DNA from: Irineochytrium annulatum
Taxonomy: Eukaryota > Chytridiomycota > Chytridiomycetes > Chytridiales > Chytridiaceae
DNA length: 17,631 bases
NCBI GenBank assembly: GCA_027600665.1
Contig: JADGJL010000580.1
Span: forward strand, 1-17,631
Direction of reading: 5' to 3'
The position numbers were made by a program, and so were the translations under genes. A model generated the notes under the pieces. It saw only the letters and a list, made by a program, of their open reading frames with translations. It had not been told where the DNA came from and made no database searches. Shown here piece by piece: positions 1 through 17,400 of the stretch. Positions within the stretch are counted from its first letter, which is position 1. Every line of letters starts with the position of its first letter.

Positions 1-115
1 ACCTCCTCCCATCGCCCCACCCATCTGACCATTCATCGCCCCGTTCATTGGCTGACCAACCCCGCCGCCCATCTGCCCACCCATTTGTCCACCCATCCCC
101 ATCCCCATGCCTTGC
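1..115 (-). repeat. Low-complexity Gly/Met/Gln repeat in the kinase tail
   Basis: Within the last visible exon of the kinase, reading on the minus strand, codons alternate GGN, ATG and CAG/CAA, giving [17 protein letters not shown] followed by further GQM and GAM units. The DNA is an imperfect array of ATGGGN/CAGATGGGT-like units and would be prone to slippage. Confidence 0.8.
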
Positions 116-1275
116 GCTTGCATATTCTGATAATCCGCGAAATACACGTGGTTCATCGCGTCCTTTGCCGAAATCCTCATGTGCGGCTGATACTGTATCA
201 TCCTGTTCAAAAGGTCGAGCGCGTACTGATCCAGCATGCCCAGCTTCGTCGTGAGCGGCTGGGGCGGATACATCGGGAACGTTTTTTTGTACTCCGGCAG
301 CTCCGAGACGCGGGGCCACGTCGCCTCCGTAGGCGTTCCAAGGAACTTGAAGATCTTAAGCAGCTGATCGTCGTTCGTCTTCCCCGGGAACAGGGGTTTG
401 CCGGAATACATCTCGGCCATGATGCAGCCGGCGGACCAAATGTCGATTGAGGTCGAATAATTACGGGAGCCGAGGAGCACGTCGGGGGCGCGATACCAGA
501 GCGTAACGACCTCGTTCGAAAAGGTGTTGACAGGGATGCCGAAGGCGCGTGCGAGGCCAAAGTCGGCGAGCTTGAGCTCGTATTTGCTGTTGATAAGGAG
601 GTTCTGGGGTTTGAGATCTCGGTGGAGCACTCTGCAGCGAAAGTTAGCACAAGGCGGCACCCGCAGAAGGAGTAACACTGACCTGTTTTCGTGACAAAAC
701 GCAATACCGGCCAACAGCTGGCCCATAAACTGTTTACACAACTGTGGCTGAATGGCCCCATTGTTACCCTGCGTGTCCATAAACTTCTTCAAATCCTAAA
801 TCGTGAGTCAGCTCCCCGATCCCACCACTCCCACGCGCAAACGTCCCTCACCATATCCATGTACTCGAAGATCAACGTCAACGTCTTCTCCGTATGGATG
901 ACATCGTACAACCTAACGATGTTGGCATGCTTCAGCTCCTTCATCAACGATATTTCCCGAATGGCCGTCGACGGCGCCCCCTCCTCCGCATCCAGATGGA
1001 TCTCCTTCAGGGCCACCACGTCCGCCGTCAGCCGGTTCTTCCCCTTGTGGACCGTTGCGTACGTCCCCTGCGATCATGTCAACACGATGCACGATTGTGT
1101 AGGTGGGAGAGTTGATTAGGTGGTTGATCAAGCAGCCTTCAACACGATCGGGTACGAACCTCGCCCAGCTTCTCCAATCGCATGTATCGCTGGAAGGGAA
1201 CATTACGATCGTTAGAACGGCGAACAGCGGACGGGCTTCGATTAGGCCGGGATGCGGGCGTGGACTTACCTCCAT
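1..1275 (-). CDS. PHO85: PHO85/CDK5-type cyclin-dependent kinase (3' end beyond window)
   Basis: Serine/threonine kinase of the Pho85/CDK5 group, which works with a cyclin in phosphate signalling, cell cycle and polarity. Coding exons by my splicing: 1275-1270, 1189-1160, 1067-852, 795-683, 631-1, phase-consistent throughout and giving 332 residues before the window edge. The start codon is the ATG two codons before the GTAAGT donor. Seen: glycine loop split across exons 2 and 3 (GEGTYATV), catalytic K33, a perfect PSTAIRE helix at 44-50, HRDLKPQN at 125-132, DFG at 145-147, activation loop [19 protein letters not shown]. The loop has Ser (S160) where CDK1/2 have the CAK-phosphorylated Thr, as is usual in Pho85 and CDK5. 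After the kinase fold comes a Gly/Met/Gln-rich tail from about residue 296 that is still open at position 1, so the true C-terminus is not seen. Assignment to the Pho85/CDK5 group is firm; PHO85 rather than another member is likely from the FEYMD-DLKKFMD segment. Confidence 0.93.
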
Positions 1276-3333: not shown

Positions 3334-5142
3334 TCAAACGTTCCTCTGCACCACGACCGCGTTGAGGAGACCCGCGTCCTTGAGCGTCAAGCTCGAATCC
3401 GTCAGCTCCTTGTTCGGGAACGTCGTTTGGAGAATGAAGCTCCTCCCTCCCAACTCAGGCCGATTGCTAAGAGGATAACGAGATAAGGGTAAAGTAAGCG
3501 CGTTTCCAAATTGAGCGCGAAGTAGTCAAGATATCACGTACTGAAGGATAAAGTTCCGGAGGTCCGCGATCGTGTGCGAGTGATTGAGCTTCGCAACGAG
3601 CCTGTAGGCAAAAGCCGCAACTCATTAGACCTGTCGACGAAACTCCGACGGAACTTGAACTACCCACTTGCTCCCATCCGCCAGCCTGATCTGAACCGAT
3701 GTCATCGGTGCCGACTCATCCACCACCGGGGCCGGCACCGTCGGTGCGGCCGCAGGTCGCGCCGCAGACACTCCGGACGACCCGCCAGGGAAGCCGCCCG
3801 GCATCGAGACCCCACTACCGGCACCGCCCCCGCTGGAAGCCCCGGCCTCCGCGCCGAGACGAAATCCAGACCCCGAAAAGGCCTGCGCGGGCCTTTTCGG
3901 AGGGGGCCGGTAGTCCTCCTCCATGCGGTGCTCGACCTTAACCTCGACGGGCTGGCCGTATTGAACGTTCAAGAGCGCGGTCGGGGCGCGTCTGTCACGT
4001 TATAAGACCACGCGATTAGCGTCCTATGGGGCTGAAAGAAGACGGTAGGGACATACCCGCTGTTGATAGCGCTGAGGAACTCCTGATTCTTCGGGTCGTC
4101 GTATTTCAGCAGCGGGCCATCCTCAATGCTGAAGCCGTCTCTCCAGAACGTCAAGCGCCGGTCGACCTTCTCCGGCTCTTCGGGTGCGTTCGGTCCGGGA
4201 GCGGGCCTAGGAGCGGGAGGCTTCGCGGCGTCCTCCTCTGAGCCGAGCCGGTAGCCGGAGCCTTGAAAGAGAGGCTTCTTCCGCTCGGGCTCATCCTCGT
4301 GCGGCTGGGCTCTGTAAGGTCGCAGGCGACGGTAAACAAGAATGCGGGAAATAGAGTGGTTACTTTTGAGCCTTCGAGAGGATATCCTTCACCAAATCGG
4401 TGGCCTTCTTCTTGTCCTTCGGTCCGCCCTAATGCAAACTTGAGGTTAATTCCGGGACTTTAGCATCCCAAAACACAAGGAGCAGTCGGTCACCTGCATC
4501 ATCACCCCAGACTTCTCGCCACCAGCAAAGAAGTTTTCGCGCTCCTCCTCCTCCTCATCGTCGCCCGAATTCATGATGTCCCGCAGGGTCCTCATCTTTG
4601 CCGACGTTGATATGTTCCCCGTTCCTTTTGGTATAAGATGATGAGTCAGTCTCCCCCTTCGACTCCTCACAAACGTTCTTCGCTCCAGTGTCATTCTTCT
4701 GAATGTATCGTCCATGATGACAATACGATCTCTCCGTACGCTCAACACGACGGCTCTTTGCAAGATCATGCGAGCCTCATCCATACTCATTTCTCCACCT
4801 ACTCCACATCACGCTATTTCTTCCGAAGCGACTCCTCTAAACCCTCCTCTGAAAGGCGCTGTATTTCATACCTCTTGCGCTCGACGAGGACGGGTTGCCC
4901 GACGACGAGGGTCCGGGCGCGACCCTCTGCGGCGCCGGTTGATTGTCCATCACGTCCCCGTCATCCGCATCCTCATCATCGTCTCCCTCCATTCCTTCTC
5001 CCCCTTGCTCCTGGCTCGCAAAGTATGCCGACACGGCCCCGTTCATGTCGCCCTTGTGGGCCTGAAGGTAGAACTTGGCCTGGTCGGCCGTGCAGCCCGT
5101 AAGGCCCACAAAGCTCGCGATGTTCTGCTCCTCGTCCGCCAT
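3334..5142 (-). CDS. SHP1: p47/Shp1-type UBA-SEP-UBX cofactor of Cdc48/p97
   Basis: Adaptor that binds the AAA+ ATPase Cdc48/p97 and ubiquitin, with roles in membrane fusion, protein degradation and PP1 regulation. Exons: 5142-4872, 4624-4494, 4428-4364, 4311-4057, 3991-3668, 3601-3542, 3466-3334; 1239 nt, 412 aa, close to yeast Shp1 and a little longer than animal p47. Domain order: UBA-like helices at 1-45 ([20 protein letters not shown]), a long acidic and Ser/Pro linker, the conserved [21 protein letters not shown] segment in exon 2, SEP domain at about 207-270 ([13 protein letters not shown] through [11 protein letters not shown]), UBX domain at about 332-412 with the loop TFPNKEL and the ending [13 protein letters not shown]. 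The SEP and UBX domains are each split by an intron; the chosen donors (GTATGT, GTGGGT) are the ones that restore continuous domain sequence. The first intron (247 nt) is the longest in the gene and its 3' site is the least certain junction. Confidence 0.94.
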
Positions 5143-5774
5143 CCTGCACGTTAGGCGCGAGCTGGTTGAAGGGTTCGGCGATCTGGAGGGGTTCGCGCGT
5201 TCGGTGAAGTCAGGCCGCGTAGACTTCAGATCAATTCACTGATCTTCGTCAAAGCTGCTAACACTTTCAACAGGATAACTGAAGTCTGCAAACATGCAAG
5301 ACTCTGACGCTAACAGGCACTTAGTATGATCATTTTCTGATATTCAGTGGACGCGATCCTTATTATGCGGCCGAGAGCGAGCTGAATTGAATGCGAATAC
5401 TTGCACGGGCCCTCTGTAAAAAAAAAAAAAATGTTCTACTTTGTGGCATCCTCGAAGGAGATCGTAAAAAGGTCCTTTCCTTATCTGTCGTATCGAAAAC
5501 GTGGCAGACGAAGCGGACATGCATGTCCAAACGGCCGGCCGCTGATTGGATCGCATTCGATCCGAAGGTCAGCAAGAAAAAGGAGGCAGAAGCCCGGGTG
5601 CCGATCCTCTCTCCCGCCACTCGGCCGCCGTCCTCATCCGACTCGACGTGGGCTCGCCGGCCTTCAAGCTCTTCCGTACTCGACCACCCAACTTGATCCT
5701 CCGGCGGACGGCGACCGCCAGGCAAAAGCCGGCCCATCGTGGCGTCGACAGCGTTTCCGCGAGGTGGCTCCATC
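5143..5774. other. Divergent intergenic region with possible bidirectional promoter
   Basis: This 632-bp stretch separates two divergently transcribed genes, the p47-like gene (leftward) and the mitochondrial carrier (rightward), so it carries both promoters. A run of 14 A residues lies at 5418-5431, a possible nucleosome-excluding poly(dA:dT) tract. Several overlapping frames are open here on both strands, but their translations are Arg/Ser/Pro-rich with no motif, so I do not call a gene. Confidence 0.6.
5418..5431 (+). repeat. Homopolymer A tract (14 A)
   Basis: Fourteen consecutive A residues in the middle of the divergent promoter region. Such tracts commonly exclude nucleosomes in fungal promoters; that role here is inferred from position only. 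Confidence 0.9.
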
Positions 5775-7356
5775 ATGGCCGACGGCGTACCCTCCGTCGT
5801 CGTCCAGGTACGGTATTGATCTTGATTCTTCCTTCCGGCGATCCTGAATGCGCCTGCCTTATCCCTCGCGTACGTCGCCGAATTGGCCACAATATAACCC
5901 TTACCCTTTTGTAGCAATCGATGCAGCAGCCGAAGATGACCTCGCCGTCATCATATCAGCGCATGCTATCTGCTTGCGGCGGTGCCTTTATCGTAGCTCT
6001 TCTAGGTGAGCATTTTGCCTGCAAACAATAACAGGAAAATTTAAGCTAGTTAAGCTTGCTAACCCTTTCTCACCTATACAACTCGTTAGTCACGCCTTTT
6101 GATGTCGTCAAGACCCGCATGCAGTCCAGCATCACCCTGGACGTCTCACGCTCCTCCTCCACCTCCTCCTCCTCCTCGTCCTCCTCCACATCATCTACCG
6201 CCTACCGCGCCCCCTATTTCCCACATCGGTATCACCGCGCTGCAAGAGCTTCTCACTTCGCAACACCGACACCATCACTCCCCGCTTCCTCCGCCACAGT
6301 TGGCGCTGCGGCGACTCGGATGTTGATCAACAACGTCGAGACGCCAGTCAACGGGACGGTCGATAGCATCGCGAAGATCATACGGCATGAGGGGGCAGCG
6401 AGGCTGTGGAGGGGTCTGAGCCCGACGTTGATGATGCAGGTGCCGGCGACCGTAGTGTATTACCTTGGATACGAGAGCATCCGGGACGGCGTCACGCCGA
6501 AGTTCAGGGAGTGGCATGGGAAGAGGTCAGATGTGTATGCGCCGCTGGTCGCAGGGGCTGTAGCGAGAAGTGAGTCATTCTGAAGGTGTTCCGTGGCAGG
6601 CAAAAGTGGCTAACTTGTATGATCAGCCGCCGCCGCCATCTGCATCTCCCCGCTTGAGCTCATCCGCACGCGCATGCAGGCCAGCCACGCCAACTACAGC
6701 CTCGTCGGCATGGTCCGCGAGGTAGTCGGCATGTCGAACAGCTGCGGCTTCTTCTCCCTCTGGCGAGGACTTGCTCCTACGCTGTGGAGGGACGTGCCGT
6801 TTTCGGCCATTTACTGGACGGGGTATGAGACTATCAAGAAGGGGCTGATGGGCGTGAGCGCGGATGCTGTGGTTGCTGCAGAGGGGAGACGGGCGATCGC
6901 GGTGGAGGCGCAAGCGGTTATGGCGACGCCGTCGAGGGAGTTTATGACGAGTTTTGCGGCGGGCGCGATTGCGGGATCGGTATGTTTCTCCCCGTTTACC
7001 TGCCCTTTTCTTTCGCTGACAAATAGTTTAGATTGCCGCCGTCTTTACGTCTCCCTTTGATGTGGCCAAGACCCTCCAGCAGGTGACCCGGCACGACGAG
7101 CCCGGCGCCGCGTCTGCGAGGAGGAGCTGGGGCATGTTATCGATCCTGAGAACGATCGTCGAGACTCAGGGTTACAGAGGGTTGTTCCGCGGGCTGTCGC
7201 CGAGGATCGCGAAGGTGGCGCCGAGCTGCGCTATTATGATCTCCAGTGAGTGTTTATGCTTCAAGTCTGCAGGAGCGGTGTTGTAATGCTGCTTAACCAG
7301 GCTATGAGCTCGGAAAGCGGTTTTTCGAGCGGCAGAACGCCCGATTTGCTTTGTGA
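5775..7356 (+). CDS. MTM1: Mitochondrial carrier, SLC25A39/40/Mtm1 type
   Basis: Six-helix inner-membrane carrier. The animal members import glutathione into the matrix; yeast Mtm1 loss disturbs manganese/iron handling of Sod2. Exons: 5775-5807, 5915-6005, 6090-6569, 6627-6979, 7032-7245, 7301-7356; 1227 nt, 408 aa, somewhat longer than the usual 350-370. The three carrier repeats each show the P-x-[DE]-x-x-[KR] signature: TPFDVVKTRMQ (43-53), SPLELIRTRMQ (about 209-219), SPFDVAKT (about 326-333). Family-specific blocks: IIRHEGAARLWRGLSPTLMM, VPATVVYYLGYE, LAPTLWRDVPFSAIYW. The extra length is in the first matrix loop (about 54-120), which carries a Ser-rich simple repeat and, in my translation, no cysteine. 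Start: a short first exon MADGVPSVVVQ followed by a GTACGG donor; a farther upstream start cannot be excluded. The C-terminus ends ELGKRFFERQNARFAL. Confidence 0.93.
6151..6188 (+). repeat. In-frame TCC trinucleotide repeat encoding poly-Ser
   Basis: An imperfect run of TCC triplets interrupted by ACC and TCG lies in exon 3 of the carrier and encodes a nearly pure Ser stretch with a few Thr in the first matrix loop. It is the type of sequence that changes length by slippage. Confidence 0.9.
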
Positions 7357-7972
7357 GGAACAACGTCTCCGGCCCCTCTGCCCATCGTGGTCTCCGTCAA
7401 TGACCAAAGTCGTCCCTTTCACGATTAATAACAATCCCGTTTTTTCCTTCGTCTCTTTCGGCCTCTGTATCTTTTATTTGTGCTACTTTTTCTCGATTTT
7501 GTGGAAACATCGCCATTCCAATCTCGTCTCTCACTTAAAGCCTTTTTGTGTCCGTTACCTGTGTCATACTTCACCTGTATAGTATAGCATTCTATAATAG
7601 CCTGTGCTTTACTTTTCCGTGTGCCATCTCTTCCCACTTCCTCTTTTCACCACTTCAGTTCTTCCGTTGTCGGTCTTTGGCTCTTGGATGTCAACATACC
7701 CTGTCATTGTAGTTGTGATGGGTGTAGGAATGGATACTCACGAATGGGATCGTAAATACAGTTACGCACTAATCTCCTCAATATTTATGTACCTTCACGT
7801 CACCTGTTGAGAAGGGAATTCGTCGTATGTCTGCACTTATGCGAGCTCTGGCAGCCTACCAAGTTCTTGATTTGTCGAGGTGGTCGCGTGAGTTGGGTGG
7901 CCAAGTTGAAACTCAGCCTGATCCCGACATTCCCACGGAAGGCTCCCAACTACTAGAGCGCGTCGACTGACA
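7357..7972. other. Intergenic: carrier 3' UTR and upstream region of coiled-coil/MIF4G gene
   Basis: This 616-bp stretch follows the carrier stop. The part from about 7420 to 7680 is T- and CT-rich on the plus strand, without motifs. At 7828 an ATG opens a 48-codon frame ending in TGA at 7972. It contains a consensus-like GTGAGT near 7889 and AG sites near 7955 and could be a spliced 5' exon of the downstream gene, but no similarity supports that. No RNA gene is visible. Confidence 0.45.
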
Positions 7973-9520
7973 ATGCACGACTTCGCTGCCGCTGTCGCCG
8001 CGATCCGCGCCGGTATGCGCGCCGAGATGGCCGTTATGGTGGCGAAACAACGGCTGGATATGGCGGCGCTGCGGGCCGAGGTGTGGGCAGACCGCGCCAA
8101 TGCGGAGATTCGGCGCGTTAAGGACATGCCGGACGCGCAGGAAACGGAGGTATTGCGCAAGGCGTTCAATTCTTGCCTCTTGGCGCCGCAATTTAATGCA
8201 GGACCGCTGGAATGCAGAAAGCAAGTGATGACCTGGCATTCGAGGTTATAAAGTTGAAGGAGGAGCTGCAGTCGATGGAGGTATTATTTTCATCCTTGCA
8301 ACGCAGGGTCTGAGATATATGCCCAGCTCAAGTTCTCGGCCGCCGAAGTTTCATCAAGGACGATGGCGCTTAAAGTTCAGGAGACAGAAGCGGCGCTGGA
8401 GGCCATGCGAATGAGAGTCAAAAATGAGGAGTCGAGGGACGCGATGGAAGTTACAGCCGATGAGGCCGAGGTTCTGGCGCAAGATGTGCAGATCAAAGCT
8501 TTAGAGGCCGACGGGACGAAGAAGGCTATGCGGCGCTACCGCCATATCACTGAAGACTTGTTGGAGATTATGGCTTCCGGAGTCGATGTCCTTGAGGCGT
8601 CGGAAGCGATGGATTCCGGAGTTGATTTTTCGGAGGGGCCGGAAGAGATGTCATTTCCAGTAAAAGATTATGGTCTCGGAGCGACACGGCACGATGAAGT
8701 GGCCAACGTTGTTGAAACGGTAAAAGACTACGCGCTTGGAGCGATACGGATGCATGAGGAGCCCTCAAATGCGGACTTGTATCAACCACAGGACGAATTG
8801 CTACAACGGGAACAGTCTGAGATCGATGAAGACGAGAGCATTGAGGAGAAGGCGTTCTGCGCCTTACTGAACATGTTGGACGAAGTCGGGCCGAAGAAGT
8901 TGTCGAAAGAAATTCTGAATCTCGAGGTCACGACGCTTTATCGGCTAAATCGGCTTGTAGATCTGGTATACGACAAGGCTGTTGACGAGGAGCAGCAGCC
9001 GTGTAAGTACGCGCCTCTTTGTCGAACAATATCGGATGGGCTATGTAGTACACAAAAGTGGATTTCCGATGGCGGGAGAAACCTCTTTTGCAAGCTGCTG
9101 GTGGCTAAATGCGAGGCTGAATTCGTTCGAAGTCTGAGTAAGGGCAACGGCCGCGAAGCAGAAGCGCGAGGGATGGATCTGGATCTTGGTTTAACCAGGA
9201 GTGTAGAGGTCAGGAATTCCAAGCGTCGCCAGCAACGGAACGTCGGCTTCATCGGGGAGTTGCTTGATGAGGGGTTAGCGACGCATGAGACCGTTTTAAG
9301 ATACCTCCGGCACTTGGTCCCGTCGCTGGGTTGCTCTGACGATGAGAACATGCAATCGCTGTATTTGCTGTTGAAGAGCGTGCGCAAGTGTATTGACCAC
9401 GAAACCTTCGCTGCAGTCAACGAGTTTTTGAAAAAAGGGACCGTACGCTTCTTTTTTCCCAGCCGCGTTCGATCCACTCTGAATGAAATCAGAAGCTGTC
9501 TTTACTCGAAGCAACTGTAA
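7973..9520 (+). CDS. Coiled-coil protein with C-terminal eIF4G-like MIF4G domain
   Basis: I do not recognise this as a named gene. Proposed exons 7973-8149, 8218-8280, 8327-9520 give 477 aa with phase 0 junctions and introns of 68 and 46 nt. Residues 1 to about 145 are Ala/Glu/Arg/Lys-rich and helical, coiled-coil-like, opening with a twice-repeated A[IL]RA-x-x-R-A-E-M-A type unit. Residues about 160-232 hold two small tandem duplications (13 and 20 aa) and are acidic. Residues about 255-470 match the order and spacing of a MIF4G HEAT domain of eIF4G: AFCALLNMLDEVGPKKL, EILNLEVTTLYRLNRLVDLV, YDKAVDEE with YAPLCRTI, LFCKLLVAKCEAEFV, RRQQRNVGFIGELLDEGL, then ENMQSLYLLLKSVRKCID and SRVRSTLNEI. 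In eIF4G this domain binds eIF4A and RNA. Here there is no MA3 or W2 domain after it and no clear N-terminal eIF4E-binding motif; the only Y-x4-L-hydrophobic match (YRLNRLV) lies inside a MIF4G helix. The start at 7973 is provisional; a 5' exon from 7828 is possible. Confidence 0.7.
8575..8652 (+). repeat. 39-bp in-frame tandem duplication (2 copies)
   Basis: TTCCGGAGT-initiated units begin at 8575 and 8614 and translate as SGVDVLEASEAMD and SGVDFSEGPEEMS. The second copy has diverged in its 3' half. The unit length is a multiple of three, so the frame is kept. Confidence 0.75.
8660..8779 (+). repeat. 60-bp in-frame tandem duplication (2 copies)
   Basis: Units beginning GTAAAAGA at 8660 and 8720 translate as VKDYGLGATRHDE... 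and VKDYALGAIRMHEE.... The first 13-14 codons are well conserved between copies and the rest is diverged. It lies directly after the 39-bp duplication, between the coiled-coil region and the MIF4G domain. Confidence 0.8.
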
Positions 9521-9959: not shown

Positions 9960-12900
9960 TTAGTTTCGAATCAACTCCATTGCGGAGAGGTCAGCCATAT
10001 AACCTACGACAAGTTTTAGCCCAGCTCATGTTAACATAATCAATTCGCTTACCGATGCCGATCCAAACGGAGCATGCGCCTAAGGGGTGGCAAAAGATCC
10101 TTGCGGCAATCACGTACATGACCCCAGGTATCGACGCATCCAGGATACCGGCGGACACTATGTACCGTGAGTCATTTCGAGGCATGAATAGTTACGCTAC
10201 CGATTTGATCCGTGATCGCCTCCACGTCCATGTCCTTAAAATGGAAAACATCACCCCGCCACCAATGCCCATCCGGCAACAGATCCACCATCGTCTCATC
10301 CACCAGCCTCGACAAGCTTGGCTCCATATTATTTAGCGAGTTATCCCGAAACAGCGTAAGCGACAGCAACGACCCTCTCGACCCGGCCCTCCGCCTAAAC
10401 GGCGGCGCGTTGGACGCGACGCCGGAGCCGTTGGCATCGAACGGGCTGAACTGGTTGTCCCCCAGGTTCGCGATCGCACGCTCGGTTAGAATGCCGGTGA
10501 GGGTGGACTCGAACCGGTTAAGCTGTGACTGGAGGTGCTTGGAGCCGTCACGGTGGAACTCGGTCTCGGAGATGAAGAGGACGTGGCGGCGGTAGAGCTG
10601 GATGTAGTCGATGAGTTCTTGTAAAAGATTTCTGTGTAAATATAAGAGTAAACAAAACGGCCAACAAAGACAAGCACAGTACTTGTCATCTGTCCGCTCG
10701 TCGCGATTGTAGCTTGGCGATGAATACATAACAAACGTCGGGGCCGAGTCTAAAGTGACGAAATCAATGCTGGAATCTTATTTGGGTTCGAAGACTCACA
10801 AAAGCACTTCAATACGTCTGAGGACTTCAACGCCTCGGGGAAGAAGGGTATCCAATGTTCCGTATTTTCCAGGTTCCATGAGAAGTACGGTCGACTTAGC
10901 AGGTCCGTTTTCTGCACGTTGTAATAGATATTTTCATGATTGAATAACGTTTCCAATCGATCGAAGAGGAAACCCTTCTCTCGGGGGGACTCAAATGTCC
11001 TCCCTAGTTCTTCATCAGCCATCGACGCCCTATTACGTCCTTACCGGTGAGGGCATCCCAATGCACGACCTTGAAGCGCTTATTCGCCTCCTGTGCCTTA
11101 ATAGCGTCCCTCAGATTCGCAAATTCCGATCGTTGGAACTCGACCGAGGGGTTCTCATCGCTATAGTAGTACGAGATCTTGCACGGGGCGAACTCATCAA
11201 AATTCCCCGTGTCCTCCCGCACGGTGATCGGGTTAATAGTGACGACCCACACGTACGGCCGCCGCTTTACTGAAATTCAACAATTAACGCGTTAGTCTAA
11301 ATCAATAAAAATAAAAATACAATAAAATTAAAAAAAGAACTAGGCGCACCTTTACCGATGGCAACATACGCCTTAAACCCCATCCCTAGCAACAACCCAC
11401 ACAACAGCAACGAGTGCTCAATCAACGACCCCCTCCTGGACAACAACATTGTCTGCGGCGACGAGATCTGCCCATAAAAGTTCTCCGTCGCAACCGAATG
11501 CGGGTTCTGGCATAACATCCAACCTGCAATGGCGGTCGAATCCGTCATCAGACTATTATCAACAACCTTCTCCTCCGCAGCGCTCATGTGCAGCGCCATC
11601 AACCTCTTGGTGGCCGTGGATCGGGGCACGATGGGGATGATGTAGGGGATGCGGGAGACGGCCATGGCGGCGTCCTGGGGCGTGAAGAGGCGGGTGTCGT
11701 GCATGGTCACGGGGCGGACGAAGGAGGTTAAGGGGCGGATGACGTTGTTCTCGTCGAGGCCGAGGGTGTTGAAGACGCGGCGGCGGAAGGGGACCCGGAG
11801 GGCTCGGGGAACGGCGGTGTATTGGGTCCAGACGTCGAACTTCGACATGCGATCAATAAGTATTCCATGGTGGCGAAATAGAAGCTTACCAGGTTGCGAG
11901 AGCGCTCCGCGTTGGCGTCTTGGGCGGCTTCGTCTGATACGTCGCGTTAGGACGTTGATATGTGATTTAGGCACTCACATTCGATCTCACTTTCCCTTCG
12001 AGTGCCGCGTCCCTTTGTTCCCTTTCTTGATACCTGATAGTATTTAGAACTTCATGCCTTTCAATAGGCTTACCGCAGATTTCCGATTTTGCGCGACGCC
12101 ACGCAGGTCATTGATGAACTTCGCAGGATGTCTCTTCAGCCAAACTGACGGACTTTAAGAACAAAGTGTGAAATATCAGCAGCACGTACGCTCCTCCGGG
12201 TATGTGTAGGCGTCCACAATCTTGGCCCAAGCCCACCGCTCCTGCGTCAAGTCCATGATGCTCACTTCGATGCAGGCCTGGTCGGACTCGTTCGTCACGC
12301 TGTCGGGTGAATTGAGCTTGAGGACCTGCCAGATCGGCTTTTTCGCGGAAAGAAAGACTCGCGTGAGGGGGAAAAAGGCTGTCGCGACGAGCTCCGTGTG
12401 GCTGCGAATGTTGTCAGTGTCGATGTTTCGGGGAGTTGACGTACGCAACGACGCCTGTCTCGTTGTAGTCCAGAAGCGAGACCTGGATGGTTTGACGTTC
12501 AACCCACTGCTGCACGTCTTGTATCTCACCGGGGGGGATCGTGATGTTGAATGTGAGGTCTTGGTCCCACTCTGGCTTTGTCTAACACGAATACCCAGTC
12601 AGCGCTTTCCAACGCAACATCGGCTCACCGATCCAATGACCGCGGTGGTCTCATGAACGACTCCTGCGCATTCTACCCGAACCAGCGGGTCCATGGATTG
12701 ATAGTCAATCTCCTTCTTAAACCGCTTCTTCAACCTCGAGTATCCCCTCAAATTCCGCGCCGCGCACACGCGGACCACGATCTTCCGTCTAAGCGCGTTC
12801 ATGTCGTCGATGTACCCGTTTTTGATAATCTCCGACGTGAGCGTCTCCTGGTTCGTAAAAAAGAACTCAGGGTCGTCCAATTGTAGCGATTCCAGGTACG

Positions 12901-13565
12901 AATTCGGGTCCGGGTAAGAGCAGATGAAGTGCCGAGCGACGACGACTTTCTGTACTGCAGTTTAAACAGAGGATCCAAGCAAGCTCACGTCTAATATAAT
13001 CATACCGCATTACTGTTCGCTATTGGCAGACCTGGATGCCACTCTTCTTCATCTGGGATGTCTTTTGTCACTGAGTACTGCGCATAAGACGTGATCAATA
13101 CAAGCGAGATCTGGCAAAGAACACCCACATCAAGCTGCTCGTTATATTGCATTAACGCCTTGTCCCTCTTCTGCGCAAGAGTCGCTTGGTAATCAGCCAA
13201 GAACTCGAGGAAATCCTCAAAGTCCATCGCGCCAGTGCATGAGCTCTCATACTGATACAAGAACAGTTTGACCTGCTCCAAGCTGACGGGCGGTCCCAGT
13301 CGTGGCTGTAAGGAATGCAATGAGTGCCCGCGTCCTCCTTAGTGAAGTTCCAAATTCCCCAACATACGATCAACGTATGCAACTCATGCGCCGTCAGCCT
13401 GTAGTTCAGCTTCAGCTTCCAGCTCATCGGTGGGTCATCAAAGTCCTTGCTATCGCCCGCGTTCAGCTGGTCGGTCTCGATCTCAGCCTCGCTGATGGCA
13501 TCCTCGGAGTACTGGTTGAAGATGAACCGGAACCTCCGACTCTGATACTCGGTAAAATGCGCCAT
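9960..13565 (-). CDS. CC2D2A-like ciliary C2/transglutaminase-fold protein, short form
   Basis: CC2D2A is a transition-zone (MKS module) protein at the ciliary base. Fifteen exons, phase-consistent: 13565-13368, 13305-13006, 12949-12629, 12581-12445, 12401-12190, 12144-12074, 12033-11979, 11933-11890, 11839-11356, 11269-11045, 11003-10800, 10749-10683, 10631-10201, 10157-10053, 10003-9960; 2898 nt, 965 aa. Residues about 216-390 form a C2-like sandwich (ALRRKIVVRVCAARNL, MDPLVRVECAG, KPEWDQDLTFNI, HTELVATAFFPLTRVF). Residues about 447-760 match the degenerate transglutaminase-like domain: NVIRPLTSFVRPV, AVSRIPYIIPIVP, SLIEHSLLLCGLLLGMGFKA, PYVWVVTINP, VVHWDALTG, NIYYNVQKTDLLSRPYF. The C-terminus IPGVMYVIAARIF... 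CSVWIGIG, ending LIRN, matches CC2D2A (CEP76 is the more distant alternative). It is much shorter than animal CC2D2A (about 1,600 aa), mostly missing N-terminal sequence. Exons 7 and 8 (residues 414-446) are the least certain, supported only by phase. Confidence 0.82.
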
Positions 13566-14193
13566 GACGCTTCCCAGGCGCGCGCGTGCAGGACTATGAC
13601 GGAGACCACAGTGAGATCGCGGGGTATGAAAGTGGGAGGACGGCGGTCAATTTCGCCCATTCATCACTAGGCTCCCCAATTTACGCTGCGATCTTGATCC
13701 GAGCCCGCATCCGGGCTGACCTTAATGAGCCAGATTCTTCTTCTCTCAGCATCGTTCGTGAAGGATCGTGGTCTAACCTTTACTGAGCGAAACGATCTCA
13801 CCGAACGTTTTTTAAGTGTAGGATTTGTTCGCGGGTGACTAGGGATGTCGAAGCGATGCACCGACTTGATTAATTGGTATGGCGGTGGCATTGAGACTCA
13901 GGGACGAATCACATCTAGGGGGCGCGTCGTAGGTCGAGGCTTCGGCAGCGGGGCAGACCACAGAGCACGATACGCTGGCACGCGACGAATGTCCCACCCC
14001 CGACAACAGCGGTTTGGTCTGTTGCGCATGCGGCTGCGACTTTAGTTTCACTTATCACTTTCGTCGCTTAAGACACGCCAATATACTGTAGCAGTCTGAC
14101 TATCTCGGACGTAAGTTGTAACGCTCGAGGGTAATAAGGAAATCAAGAGAAAACTTGGCATAAGTTATTACACTCCTCCATACTGCCATCAAC
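13566..14193. other. Intergenic: CC2D2A-like promoter and UBE3D 3' UTR
   Basis: This 628-bp stretch sits between two minus-strand genes. It should contain the 3' UTR of the UBE3D-like gene and the promoter of the CC2D2A-like gene. The open frames in it are short and translate to Ser/Arg-rich sequence without motifs. I see no RFX-type X-box I would defend, no repeat and no RNA gene. Confidence 0.5.
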
Positions 14194-16107
14194 TTAGACG
14201 GGCCGGTCAACAGCAGAGTTTTGAAGATGGGACGCCATGGTCAAGTCCAGAGGAATCTGCGCAATGCTAAATCCGTTCATTGTTCTCAAAGCCCTCGGCA
14301 TCGCCGCTGTAGAACCCTTCAAAGTGCGCAGCAGATCCTCAATAAACAATCCCTCAAACGGGGGGAGCTTTTCTAAGGTCTTGTCGGTCGCCCATGTCGC
14401 CAAAACACTATAAAGAATTGATTATTATGCGTCGCGATGTCCCAACCAACCCAGCGGACGAGTCAGCGTTCTCGCGGCAATCAATATAAAGCACCTTTAA
14501 TGCTTTGAGAAGTTAGGATTTATATAACGTAAAATTGTCACCTCGACAGAAAGGCGCGTCGGACTTTTGACTATTAAACATAAAAGCGTTCGAATTCAAC
14601 AGCCAAAGCTAAAACAGGAAGATTAATTTCACAACTTTATTGCCCATAGTATCATACCAGCAACATCGGCTCACTCGAACCTCTGGGATACAGAACGAAC
14701 TTGTACACCGCATGTGCATTTGCAGACTCGGACATCAGGTCTCCAATATATGAAGAGAAGGGCTGGTGTCCAATGATTCTGTTAGGGTCGAAATTAGGTC
14801 ACGATGAAAAAACTTGGGCAAACCGTGAGTTTAGCTCCACGTCAACGGTATATCTCCAGAACTTGAAAACGGTGTTGACTACGTCGACGGTTACTGACAT
14901 AGGCAAAGAAAAGATTGTATGTACCTTCTTCGTCATTCTCCCTCTTATACTGCAAAGACTCTCCCAGCACAGTCCTGCATTTCCCGCATGAAACCGGTGC
15001 CCATTTTAACGGCCGCAAAGCCCGGGCAGCCTTCCTCCTGTACTACGAACAAATTTAAACCAGCTAAACAACGTAGAAAAAGAGGGTGCAAGAGAATGTA
15101 TCCAACCGTGTGGACCTCTGAACAGACGCTTAAGTTGAACACAGGTGTATAAAATCGGACTTTCAAAGCACACAACAAATCCATGAATATTGATATTGGA
15201 AGAATGTATCAGACATCGCTCAAACGCCTTAAAAGCACGTCTTTCTTGTTCTTCCTTCGAAGGGGCATCTAAGTTATGACTCACGACTTACGGTTTCGAG
15301 ACTCTCAGCATCCTTGTGCTTTTCCTCCCCTCGCGCGCCTCCGGTTGACGCGTGGTCGAGCTCGTTATCCACATCCACATCGCCATCCGACTTCACATGC
15401 GAGCTCACGACGGCCACATCCGGCGACGACCGATCCCCATCTTGATCGCCCTCATCGCGCGCCGCGTTAAAGTCCACCGCCTCCGATGCGACGTCGAGAC
15501 CGTTCAGAAGAAGCTGGCCCACGCCGCCGACCAAACACTCGCCCTCCGACGCCGGAATAACCGATCCGACGTGACCCCTGCGCAGGAACGAGTAGTCCTC
15601 CAAGTGGCACGCCCACGAGTCCAGCAGCTCGTGCCAATGCTCCGACGGCAGATCCAGAACGCGCTTAAACCGGGTATTTTGCTCCCCGGGTAGCTCGCGC
15701 ACGAGGTCCGATCCACAGGAGTGGCATCGCACGCGTCGCAAATCCTTCATCCACCGCGCACCAAACACCGGTGTCGACGCGCTGTCGTCCTCGGCCGATG
15801 GCAGATGATGCGCCCGAACGGGGGCCTTCAAGACGACCTCAGCGCTGCCCTCAAGCGGAGTTGACGATATCACGGCGTCGTTGAAGTCCACGGGGATAGG
15901 AAGCGGGACTCGGAGTGATGGGGATGGTGACGCTCGATCCGGGTAGAACGTGACGGCGCCGCCTTGGTAGCTCAGCGCGGATGCACACCGTTGCACGTTG
16001 CACGTAGAAAGGGCGGTCGATGAAATGATGAGCCGCATTTCGACGGGGAGGTCCATGTGACACGTCAGGGATTTCACGTTCGGTAGAAGCTCAAAAAAGA
16101 ACGACAT
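14194..16107 (-). CDS. UBE3D: UBE3D/Ipa1-type HECT_2 E3 ubiquitin ligase
   Basis: Member of the E2-binding, HECT-like UBE3D family; the yeast relative Ipa1 is linked to mRNA 3'-end processing and the animal protein binds an E2. Exons: 16107-15292, 15042-14925, 14878-14824, 14778-14658, 14608-14529, 14407-14194; 1404 nt, 467 aa, longer than the human protein (about 390). Seen: first CxxC at 128-131 (VRCHSCGSDLV), then LPSEHWHELLDSWACH at 153-168 and GECLVGG, an acidic spacer (about 205-272), a second CxxC-x3-LG block at 291-298 (CGKCRTVLGES), FKFWRYTVDVELN, AHAVYKFVLYP, MLLLWLLNSNAFMF, and the C-terminal AAMPRALRTMNGFSIAQIPL. The motif order and final helix match UBE3D well. The first intron (249 nt) is long for this gene and could hide a further small exon; the last donor (GTTATA) is weak but is the only phase-2 site that joins to the final exon. 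Confidence 0.87.
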
Positions 16108-16414
16108 GACGGCGCTAGTTTATGCTAAAGCAAAAAGGGACCTAGGGCGGACGTTAACTGTAAACTTTGTTCTTCGAAGGTCGCGCGTGAAGAACGAGAG
16201 GAAAAAAGCATTTCCATCACTATCACCTCAAAGAATTTTGCTAGTTCGAAAGAATCACGGTGGTTTGAGCTATGGGCATGTAAACCGAAGCAGTTTATGA
16301 ACGACGTCGATCCGGAGTGGGCGTGAATGGACTTCGCGTTTAATTGACAGCACAGTTATAAAGACGAAGTCAGCACCCATCCCACATTTAGTTTGACTGA
16401 TTTCAAACGCGTGC
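16108..16414. other. Upstream region of the UBE3D-like gene
   Basis: This stretch of about 307 bp precedes the minus-strand UBE3D-like start and should hold its promoter. I see no conserved reading frame on either strand and no repeat. Its right border is where similarity to the coiled-coil gene begins. Confidence 0.45.
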
Positions 16415-16500
16415 GAGATGACCGCTCTGCGAGCCAAGCTTCGCGCCGAAATGGCACCGTCGGTGCCGACGGAACAATTGGAAATGCCCGCTGCGGACGG
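16415..16500 (+). pseudogene. Fragment related to exon 1 of the coiled-coil/MIF4G gene (copy C)
   Basis: From an ATG at 16418 the plus strand reads MTALRAKLRAEMAPSV, then about eight residues on LEMPAADGALI. This parallels AAIRAGMRAEMAVMV and LDMAALRAEVW at the start of the gene at 7973. Similarity fades by about 16500, after which the frame continues without recognisable content, so this is a truncated fragment rather than a gene. Its frame differs from that of the following fragment at 16659. Confidence 0.6.
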
Positions 16501-16658
16501 AGCTCTGATCACTGCTTTAAAAAAATGGACAAAATAACTAGATGTACTGTCGTCAAAGCCCAACACGTTGAGGTAACCACATGGGAACCGAGCGCGCCTC
16601 CCGTCACCGTGCGGACGATGCAACCGTGCCGTCAGCATCAGCATCCCGTCCGAAATGT

Positions 16659-16942
16659 GGCTGCGTCGGCCGACATCGCCGCGCTGCGAGCCGAGCTCCG
16701 CGCTGAAATGGCCGCGTCGGTGGCGAAGCAGAAGTCGGAGATTGCGCCCGGAGCTTGCCGATCTGGAGCTCCGGCGGGTCAGAGAGATCAGCGTCAGAGG
16801 GGATCTGAGGATGCCTGAGGTGATTATCGCAGAGTGGCAATCATAGCCTGATCTTTTTTCGAAAGGGCTTCGTGCAAGGGAGGAGACAGATGATCGAGGG
16901 GCAGAGGTAGATAATTTGAAAGCAGAGCTGGAGACGATGCAG
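16659..16942 (+). pseudogene. Decayed paralog of the 5' exons of the coiled-coil/MIF4G gene (copy B)
   Basis: The plus strand reads ADIAALRAELRAEMAASVAK, then shifts frame by one near 16745 and continues RPELADLELRRVREI to PE at 16819. A GTGATT donor follows, at the position equivalent to the GTATTG donor ending exon 1 of the gene at 7973. After about 46 bases an exon resumes, reading REETDDRGAEVDNLKAELET then MQ, ending at 16942 before GTACCG, as the intact gene reads SDDLAFEVIKLKEELQSME before GTATTA. Both exon-intron boundaries are therefore shared. Beyond 16942 nothing corresponds to exon 3 or the MIF4G domain; the tandem array begins instead. The frameshift and missing 3' part make it a pseudogene or truncated copy. 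Confidence 0.68.
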
Positions 16943-17051
16943 GTACCGTTACGCGGCATGTCGAGTCGGGCATGACATGCGAAATGCACAAAAGCTGCAT
17001 TCGCCGCAAAACATTGAATGAGAAAGCGCAAAACGGACATGGCAAAAACTA

Positions 17052-17097
17052 CTCAATTGTCCTGCTTACGTACACGCAATTGTCATGCTAACGAACA
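17052..17097. repeat. 23-bp minisatellite, first cluster (2 copies)
   Basis: Two adjacent copies of a 23-bp unit, consensus CGCAATTGTCNTGCTAACGTACA, begin at 17052 (CTCAATTGTCCTGCTTACG...) and 17075 (CGCAATTGTCATGCTAACGA...). Each contains the palindrome CAATTG. Confidence 0.88.
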
Positions 17098-17223
17098 CGC
17101 AAGACAGGTACAGTATATTGGATGCTCAAAATCGTTCCGAAGACATGGGAAATACTCAAAAGCTGCATTCGCTGTAAAACGGGAGTTGATTGAGCAAGCG
17201 CAAACAAGACATGACAAAAATCA

Positions 17224-17316
17224 CGCAATTGTCTTGCTAACGTACACTCAATTGTCTAGCTAATGTGCACGCAATTGTCCTGCTAACGTACACGCAATTG
17301 TCTTTGCTAACGTAGA
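17224..17316. repeat. 23-bp minisatellite, second cluster (4 copies)
   Basis: Four adjacent copies of the same unit begin at 17224, 17247, 17270 and 17293; the last is 24 bp through one extra T. Copies at 17224 and 17270 differ at one base (T or C after GTC), which suggests recent amplification. Both clusters are followed by CGCAAGA, indicating that the whole composite block was duplicated. Confidence 0.9.
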
Positions 17317-17400
17317 CGCAAGATGCGTACAGCATATCGGAATGCTCAAATCGTTCCGAAGACAAGCGAAATGCTCAAAGGCTGCATACGCCGTGTCGGG

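Follow-up and report, generated by a model that had tools for sequence, protein, structure and literature searches.

PAIP1 is a short protein with a single MIF4G domain, of the PAIP1 type, and a PAM2 motif. UPF2 carries three MIF4G domains and an Upf2 C-terminal region, and DAP5 (eIF4G2) has a MIF4G followed by further C-terminal HEAT domains (MA3, W2). DAP5 is described as being without an eIF4E site in the available excerpt of PMC7470955. S. cerevisiae eIF4G is without MA3 according to PMC12063893, and MA3 is thus not universal in fungi. Both mammals and trypanosomatids have more than one eIF4G according to the excerpts of PMC7470955, PMC12063893 and PMC3399392. The last two describe trypanosomatid eIF4G paralogues as forming different eIF4F-like complexes with differing eIF4A use, and EIF4G3 and EIF4G4 as retaining eIF4E-binding motifs and C-terminal regions after MIF4G. 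In Chytridiomycota, a survey of fungal eIF4E, as excerpted, gives two paralogues per species in five members of the phylum (PMC11791286). Our literature search for eIF4G/MIF4G paralogues returned no paper on chytrid eIF4G among the matches listed.

We analyzed a window of 17,631 nucleotides, that is, the whole stretch of DNA from Irineochytrium annulatum under study. It contains on the plus strand a gene predicted to encode a 477-amino-acid protein from three exons joined in frame, with the following features.

7973..8149, plus strand: exon 1, 59 codons, the N-terminus; ATG at 7973, in-frame stop upstream at 7919; a homologous decayed copy is present
8150..8217, plus strand: intron 1, GT..AG, 68 nt, placed by frame and splice signals; partial alignment with the decayed copy
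8218..8280, plus strand: exon 2, 21 codons; the decayed copy reads ..LKAELETMQ, then GT
8281..8326, plus strand: intron 2, GT..AG, 46 nt; compare the 51-nt intron inferred in the neighboring kinase gene
8327..9520, plus strand: exon 3, 397 codons and the stop, an open frame with the remaining N-terminal region, an acidic linker and the MIF4G
8864..9517, plus strand: MIF4G domain of eIF4G type, reaching the last codon; Pfam match at 8864-9430

The start, two introns and stop of the 477-residue reading proposed in the first-pass annotation were reproduced exactly from frame and splice signals. Both introns are phase 0, and the reading frame ends with the stop at 9520. The predicted splicing is supported by the decayed copy, which aligns from exon 1 across intron 1 and exon 2 to the donor that follows, and by the 51-nt kinase-gene intron. 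The GC3 of exon 3 was 0.60, compared to 0.71-0.81 across four further genes or domains, a value that fits weak expression or relaxed selection. An Rfam scan of the window returned nothing at gathering scores. Pfam identified the following neighbors.

1-795, minus strand: protein kinase with an inferred 51-nt intron, which we take to be of CDK type
3625-5235, minus strand: gene with UBA and SEP domains, presumably p47/UBX-like
6050-7286, plus strand: mitochondrial carrier
15274-16119, minus strand: HECT_2 protein

A probable multi-exon gene also lies at 10172-13646 on the minus strand, with a match to a CEP76 peptidase-like domain at 11297-11974. We assume that it resembles the ciliary protein CC2D2A, which would fit a zoosporic fungus.

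Judged by its sequence, the C-terminal domain is a complete, diverged and plainly eIF4G-derived MIF4G. The first-pass annotation had proposed a diverged, eIF4G-like MIF4G at this end of the protein, and matches were obtained both in Pfam (PF02854, E = 3.5e-07 in exon 3) and in the PDB. The PF02854 scores straddle the curated cut-off of 30.8 bits, with 30.6 for exon 3 and 30.3 for the 477-aa protein below it and 32.2 in the own-genome profile search above it. Pfam recognized no domain besides MIF4G in exon 3 at E<=1 or in the 477-aa protein at E<=0.01, the latter search including MA3 and W2 after the MIF4G, and NCBIfam gave no match to the protein. A separate MA3 search found no match in the fungus's own genome, nor in the controls, and the reading frame of the own eIF4G extends to the end of its contig, which leaves the loss of MA3 proposed in the first-pass annotation no more than a possibility. 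Using phmmer against the PDB, the matches were to eIF4GII (1.7e-10), eIF4GI (1.5e-09), yeast eIF4G (2.2e-06) and DAP5 (0.00028); the 6 different sequences obtained at E<=1 were eIF4Gs without exception, three of them eIF4GI. When the domain alone was searched at E<=10, the same eIF4Gs accounted for 6 of the 8 sequences, the other 2 being STAT2. Neither PAIP1 nor any other short MIF4G protein was matched among PDB chains at E<=10; the PDB chains of PAIP1 and other short MIF4G proteins are matched by the fungus's own eIF4G. The PDB also contains UPF2, CBP80 and CWC22 structures, and the PDB matches of the 477-aa protein included no decay or splicing MIF4G protein.

Pairwise BLASTP gave 34% identity to the eIF4G of the same genome (85/249 alignment columns, E=9e-27). 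Five reference eIF4Gs (own fungus, human GI, human GII, DAP5 and yeast) have 31 columns identical among them, and the 477-aa protein keeps 18 of these. Its blocks run in the order EILNLEVTTLYRLNRLV, FCKLLVAKCEAEFV, FIGELLDEGL, which corrects the earlier description, in which FIGELLDEGL came first. Single-sequence structure prediction of exon 3 had a mean pLDDT of 39.2 and yielded no usable model.

The public model of the same gene is HK101_009342 (Irineochytrium annulatum, Chytridiales), a hypothetical protein of 214 aa that starts at 8363 and has 213 of its 214 residues in common with exon 3. Its end is reproduced by the following intron, or by one of 424 nt starting at 9001.

9003..9132, plus strand: intron of 130 nt with a GTAAGT donor; would excise conserved MIF4G blocks; probably an erroneous call

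The 130-nt intron would take out KYAPLC and FCKLLVAKCEAEF, two blocks that align with eIF4Gs, and homology resumes downstream. Because both candidate introns would excise eIF4G-aligning MIF4G blocks, we take HK101_009342 to be wrong. The intron that truncates its MIF4G is probably false and would be the reason that the domain is hidden in the public protein, although HK101_009342 may instead be a product of alternative splicing. It could also be argued that exons 1 and 2 belong to another transcript, the true product then being either exon 3 alone, translated from an ATG within it, or the 214 residues of the public model. The public start at 8363, the GTAAGT donor at 9003 that reproduces the public end and the weakness of the coil signal described below are compatible with that argument. 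However, the public intron cuts out KYAPLC and FCKLLVAKCEAEF although homology continues beyond them, and the phase-0 introns and the second decayed copy support exons 1 and 2, making this explanation very unlikely.

In the spliced 477-aa protein, the N-terminus had been described as rich in Ala, Glu and Arg, and the composition of residues 1-150 agrees, these being the three commonest residues (21%, 13% and 9%, respectively) and Pro and Gly numbering three in total. It had also been called a coiled coil. The mean heptad score compared to shuffled sequences gave P=0.023 for residues 1-150, a weak signal in favor, and P=0.22 for residues 1-60. Scores were similar, however, in the linker (P=0.037 for residues 150-245) and in the part with the MIF4G (P=0.073 for residues 245-477), so the coiled coil is weakly supported and the signal is not specific to the N-terminus. 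The segment is probably helical, with a coiled coil being plausible. The linker that follows, residues 150-245, is acidic, with a net charge of -16. Neither Pfam nor NCBIfam assigned the N-terminus to a family; as first suspected, the architecture matches no named family in either database, with the domain itself being eIF4G-derived. An arm motif of the form W-x-P, tentatively matched by eye ahead of the domain, reads WVP in the fungus's own eIF4G and YQP in the 477-aa protein, at a similar distance.

Decayed copies of exons 1 and 2 were found on the same contig, 8.7 kb downstream.

16414..16485, plus strand: decayed copy A, part of exon 1; 76% to copy B, with a protein-level match to exon 1
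16647..16945, plus strand: decayed copy B, comprising exon 1, intron 1, exon 2 and the donor; frame broken, then direct repeats

Copy B had a local alignment score of 85, and 500 shuffles averaged 28.4 and reached 56 at most. The own-genome MIF4G profile search found no match after copy B, where direct repeats stand in place of exon 3. These repeats occupy 16974-17400 of the window, immediately 3' of copy B, in units with GCAATTGTC and GCTAACGTACAC. Copies A and B indicate that the front end belongs to a locally duplicated segment. No other convincing copy of the N-terminus was found in the genome by searches of limited sensitivity, each of which missed known same-contig sequences (both copies A and B, exon 1, or copy A); contig C998 had one weak match (32% identity, E=2).

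The own-genome MIF4G profile search scored 8 candidates and gave 7 matches on four contigs, which carry the eIF4G (C839, with a reading frame that extends to the contig end), UPF2 (C64), a tandem frame (C943) and the 477-aa gene. The UPF2 is a separate gene and carries the Upf2 region. On C943 (L023:3135-5393, minus strand), a 753-aa open frame carries a tandem pair of eIF4G-like MIF4G domains (Pfam 5.8e-50 over two stretches), which keep 19 and 18 of the 31 reference-invariant columns; this frame would be an unusual second eIF4G paralogue. A tree of 8 sequences separated the human and yeast eIF4Gs from four chytrid domains with a support of 93. Inside the chytrid group, supports were low (37 and 57), and the branch of the 477-aa protein was long (2.0). 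The split makes it most likely that the 477-aa gene originated as a paralogue within the chytrid lineage, although its grouping with the chytrid domains may be a long-branch artefact.

Protein-database searches admitted candidates whose length was 0.55-1.75 times that of the query, and in two of the three the list was trimmed to the best-sharing ones; such searches can overlook ordinary eIF4Gs as well as distant orthologs. Within these limits, the whole 477-aa protein had no match at E<=0.001 among 7995 candidates scored and the MIF4G part had none among 1447, the 214-aa HK101_009342 being too short to qualify in either search. The four-domain alignment, with 7996 scored, had one match, the gene's own HK101_009342. 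In viral contigs, 0 of 34 pattern matches were confirmed. No ortholog of the 477-aa protein was thus found in the length-limited protein-database searches or in the viral contigs.

These results raise the possibility that the gene is a former eIF4G copy that is losing constraint, either a young pseudogene or a near-dead paralogue, whose N-terminal exons have been duplicated and are decaying nearby. Two decayed exon 1 copies on the contig (one with exon 2), the low GC3, the long branch and the lack of an ortholog in the length-limited searches are what such a copy could leave. However, exon 3 is open for 397 codons with the whole domain 34% identical to eIF4G, and an open frame of this length despite deep divergence argues for long selection. 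Retention of the reference-invariant columns (18 of 31) is also on a par with that in the tandem paralogue, which together with the open frame favors a living gene. We consider loss of constraint unlikely.

The first-pass annotation found no obvious eIF4E-binding motif, and the only YxxxxL-hydrophobic match in the protein, at residue 285, indeed falls inside the MIF4G. The same annotation held that the helicase-binding module was kept, which is plausible at best, since modelled eIF4A contact positions are changed. Five eIF4G-eIF4A contacts (S738, R764/S767, T773, Q779/Q783 and D982) are given for the human pair, modelled on the yeast complex, in the excerpt of PMC7470955, in which human T773I is inactive in a tethering assay. 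We mapped these positions, with S738 left unmapped, on a MAFFT alignment of eight domains. The acid at D982 is kept as E, the Q783 position is E as it also is in yeast eIF4G and DAP5, and positions 779 and 767 vary within the family. In contrast, position 764 is A in the 477-aa protein and basic in 6 of the 7 other domains, T773 is D where all 7 others have T, and P replaces a reference-invariant F in the contact loop. This loop can be aligned in more than one way: with phmmer, eIF4GII yields the MAFFT alignment but eIF4GI a shift of three residues that sets G against T773, and with BLASTP a gap falls in the loop when the own eIF4G is the partner. T773 was kept in none of the alignments made.

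The changed loop suggests weaker or altered eIF4A binding, and with D in place of T773, eIF4A may not bind at all. The domain could then have moved outside translation, as a protein scaffold or a binder of another helicase in the manner of decay and splicing MIF4G proteins, and the changes at 773 and 764 and the P in the loop would be expected of it. That the domain is closest to eIF4G, that its PDB matches include no decay or splicing MIF4G protein, that Q783 to E is shared with yeast eIF4G and DAP5, and that the D982-equivalent acid is kept speak for a place within translation, and we find such a departure doubtful. A helicase-binding role of the MIF4G domain is plausible.

We put at roughly one half the probability that this is a protein-coding, lineage-specific eIF4G paralogue with an unrelated N-terminus that acts as an eIF4E-independent adaptor for helicase or RNA, or as a competitor; the eIF4E independence is suggested by there being no eIF4E motif outside the domain. 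In this reading an eIF4G-type MIF4G sits behind an unrelated, probably helical, locally duplicated N-terminal segment. The MIF4G would hold a DEAD-box helicase of the eIF4A type and/or RNA independently of eIF4E, the N-terminus would oligomerize or bind a partner, and the protein would in this way modulate the full eIF4G complex or act as its competitor, on certain mRNAs or during a particular life stage. Helicase choice is possibly altered, with eIF4A binding weaker or changed via the contact loop. Overall the gene appears to be a genuine, if rather ordinary, lineage-specific offshoot of the known eIF4G family: present alongside the normal eIF4G scaffold of translation, fast-evolving, with a new front end and reduced to the helicase- and RNA-binding middle domain of eIF4G. 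A broader and quite unlikely scenario is that chytrids evolved a set of eIF4E-independent eIF4G paralogues, one with a new N-terminus and one MIF4G and one with a tandem double MIF4G, whose alternative helicase complexes would differ in the helicase chosen and serve, for instance, when zoospores store mRNA or at germination. Single-domain and tandem-domain paralogues in one small genome would be natural variants of the eIF4A-binding surface.

Compared to eIF4G (human eIF4GI/II, yeast and the fungus's own), the 477-aa protein likewise has a complete eIF4G-type MIF4G and an acid at the D982 position, but it is short, without an eIF4E motif outside the domain, unmatched at its N-terminus and changed at 764 and 773. 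Like DAP5, it has an eIF4G-type MIF4G without an eIF4E site; unlike DAP5, it ends with the MIF4G, the only Pfam domain, and identity between the two is 20%. With PAIP1 it shares the plan of a short protein on one MIF4G domain. It differs in giving no match to a simple PAM2 pattern and in having no PAIP1 chain among its PDB matches, all eIF4Gs at E<=1, so the PAIP1-like comparison made at first is weak. UPF2 was rejected as an identity, as the protein has one MIF4G only and the genome's UPF2 is separate. Trypanosomatid EIF4G3 and EIF4G4 are alike in having a short N-terminus, a MIF4G and several paralogues, but differ, as far as the excerpted sources describe them, in their eIF4E-binding motifs and post-MIF4G C-terminal regions. 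By analogy, and on those same excerpts, trypanosomatids would come closest as a precedent for a number of short eIF4Gs that differ in their use of eIF4A, and a chytrid paralogue set, if real, would parallel their multiple eIF4F complexes.
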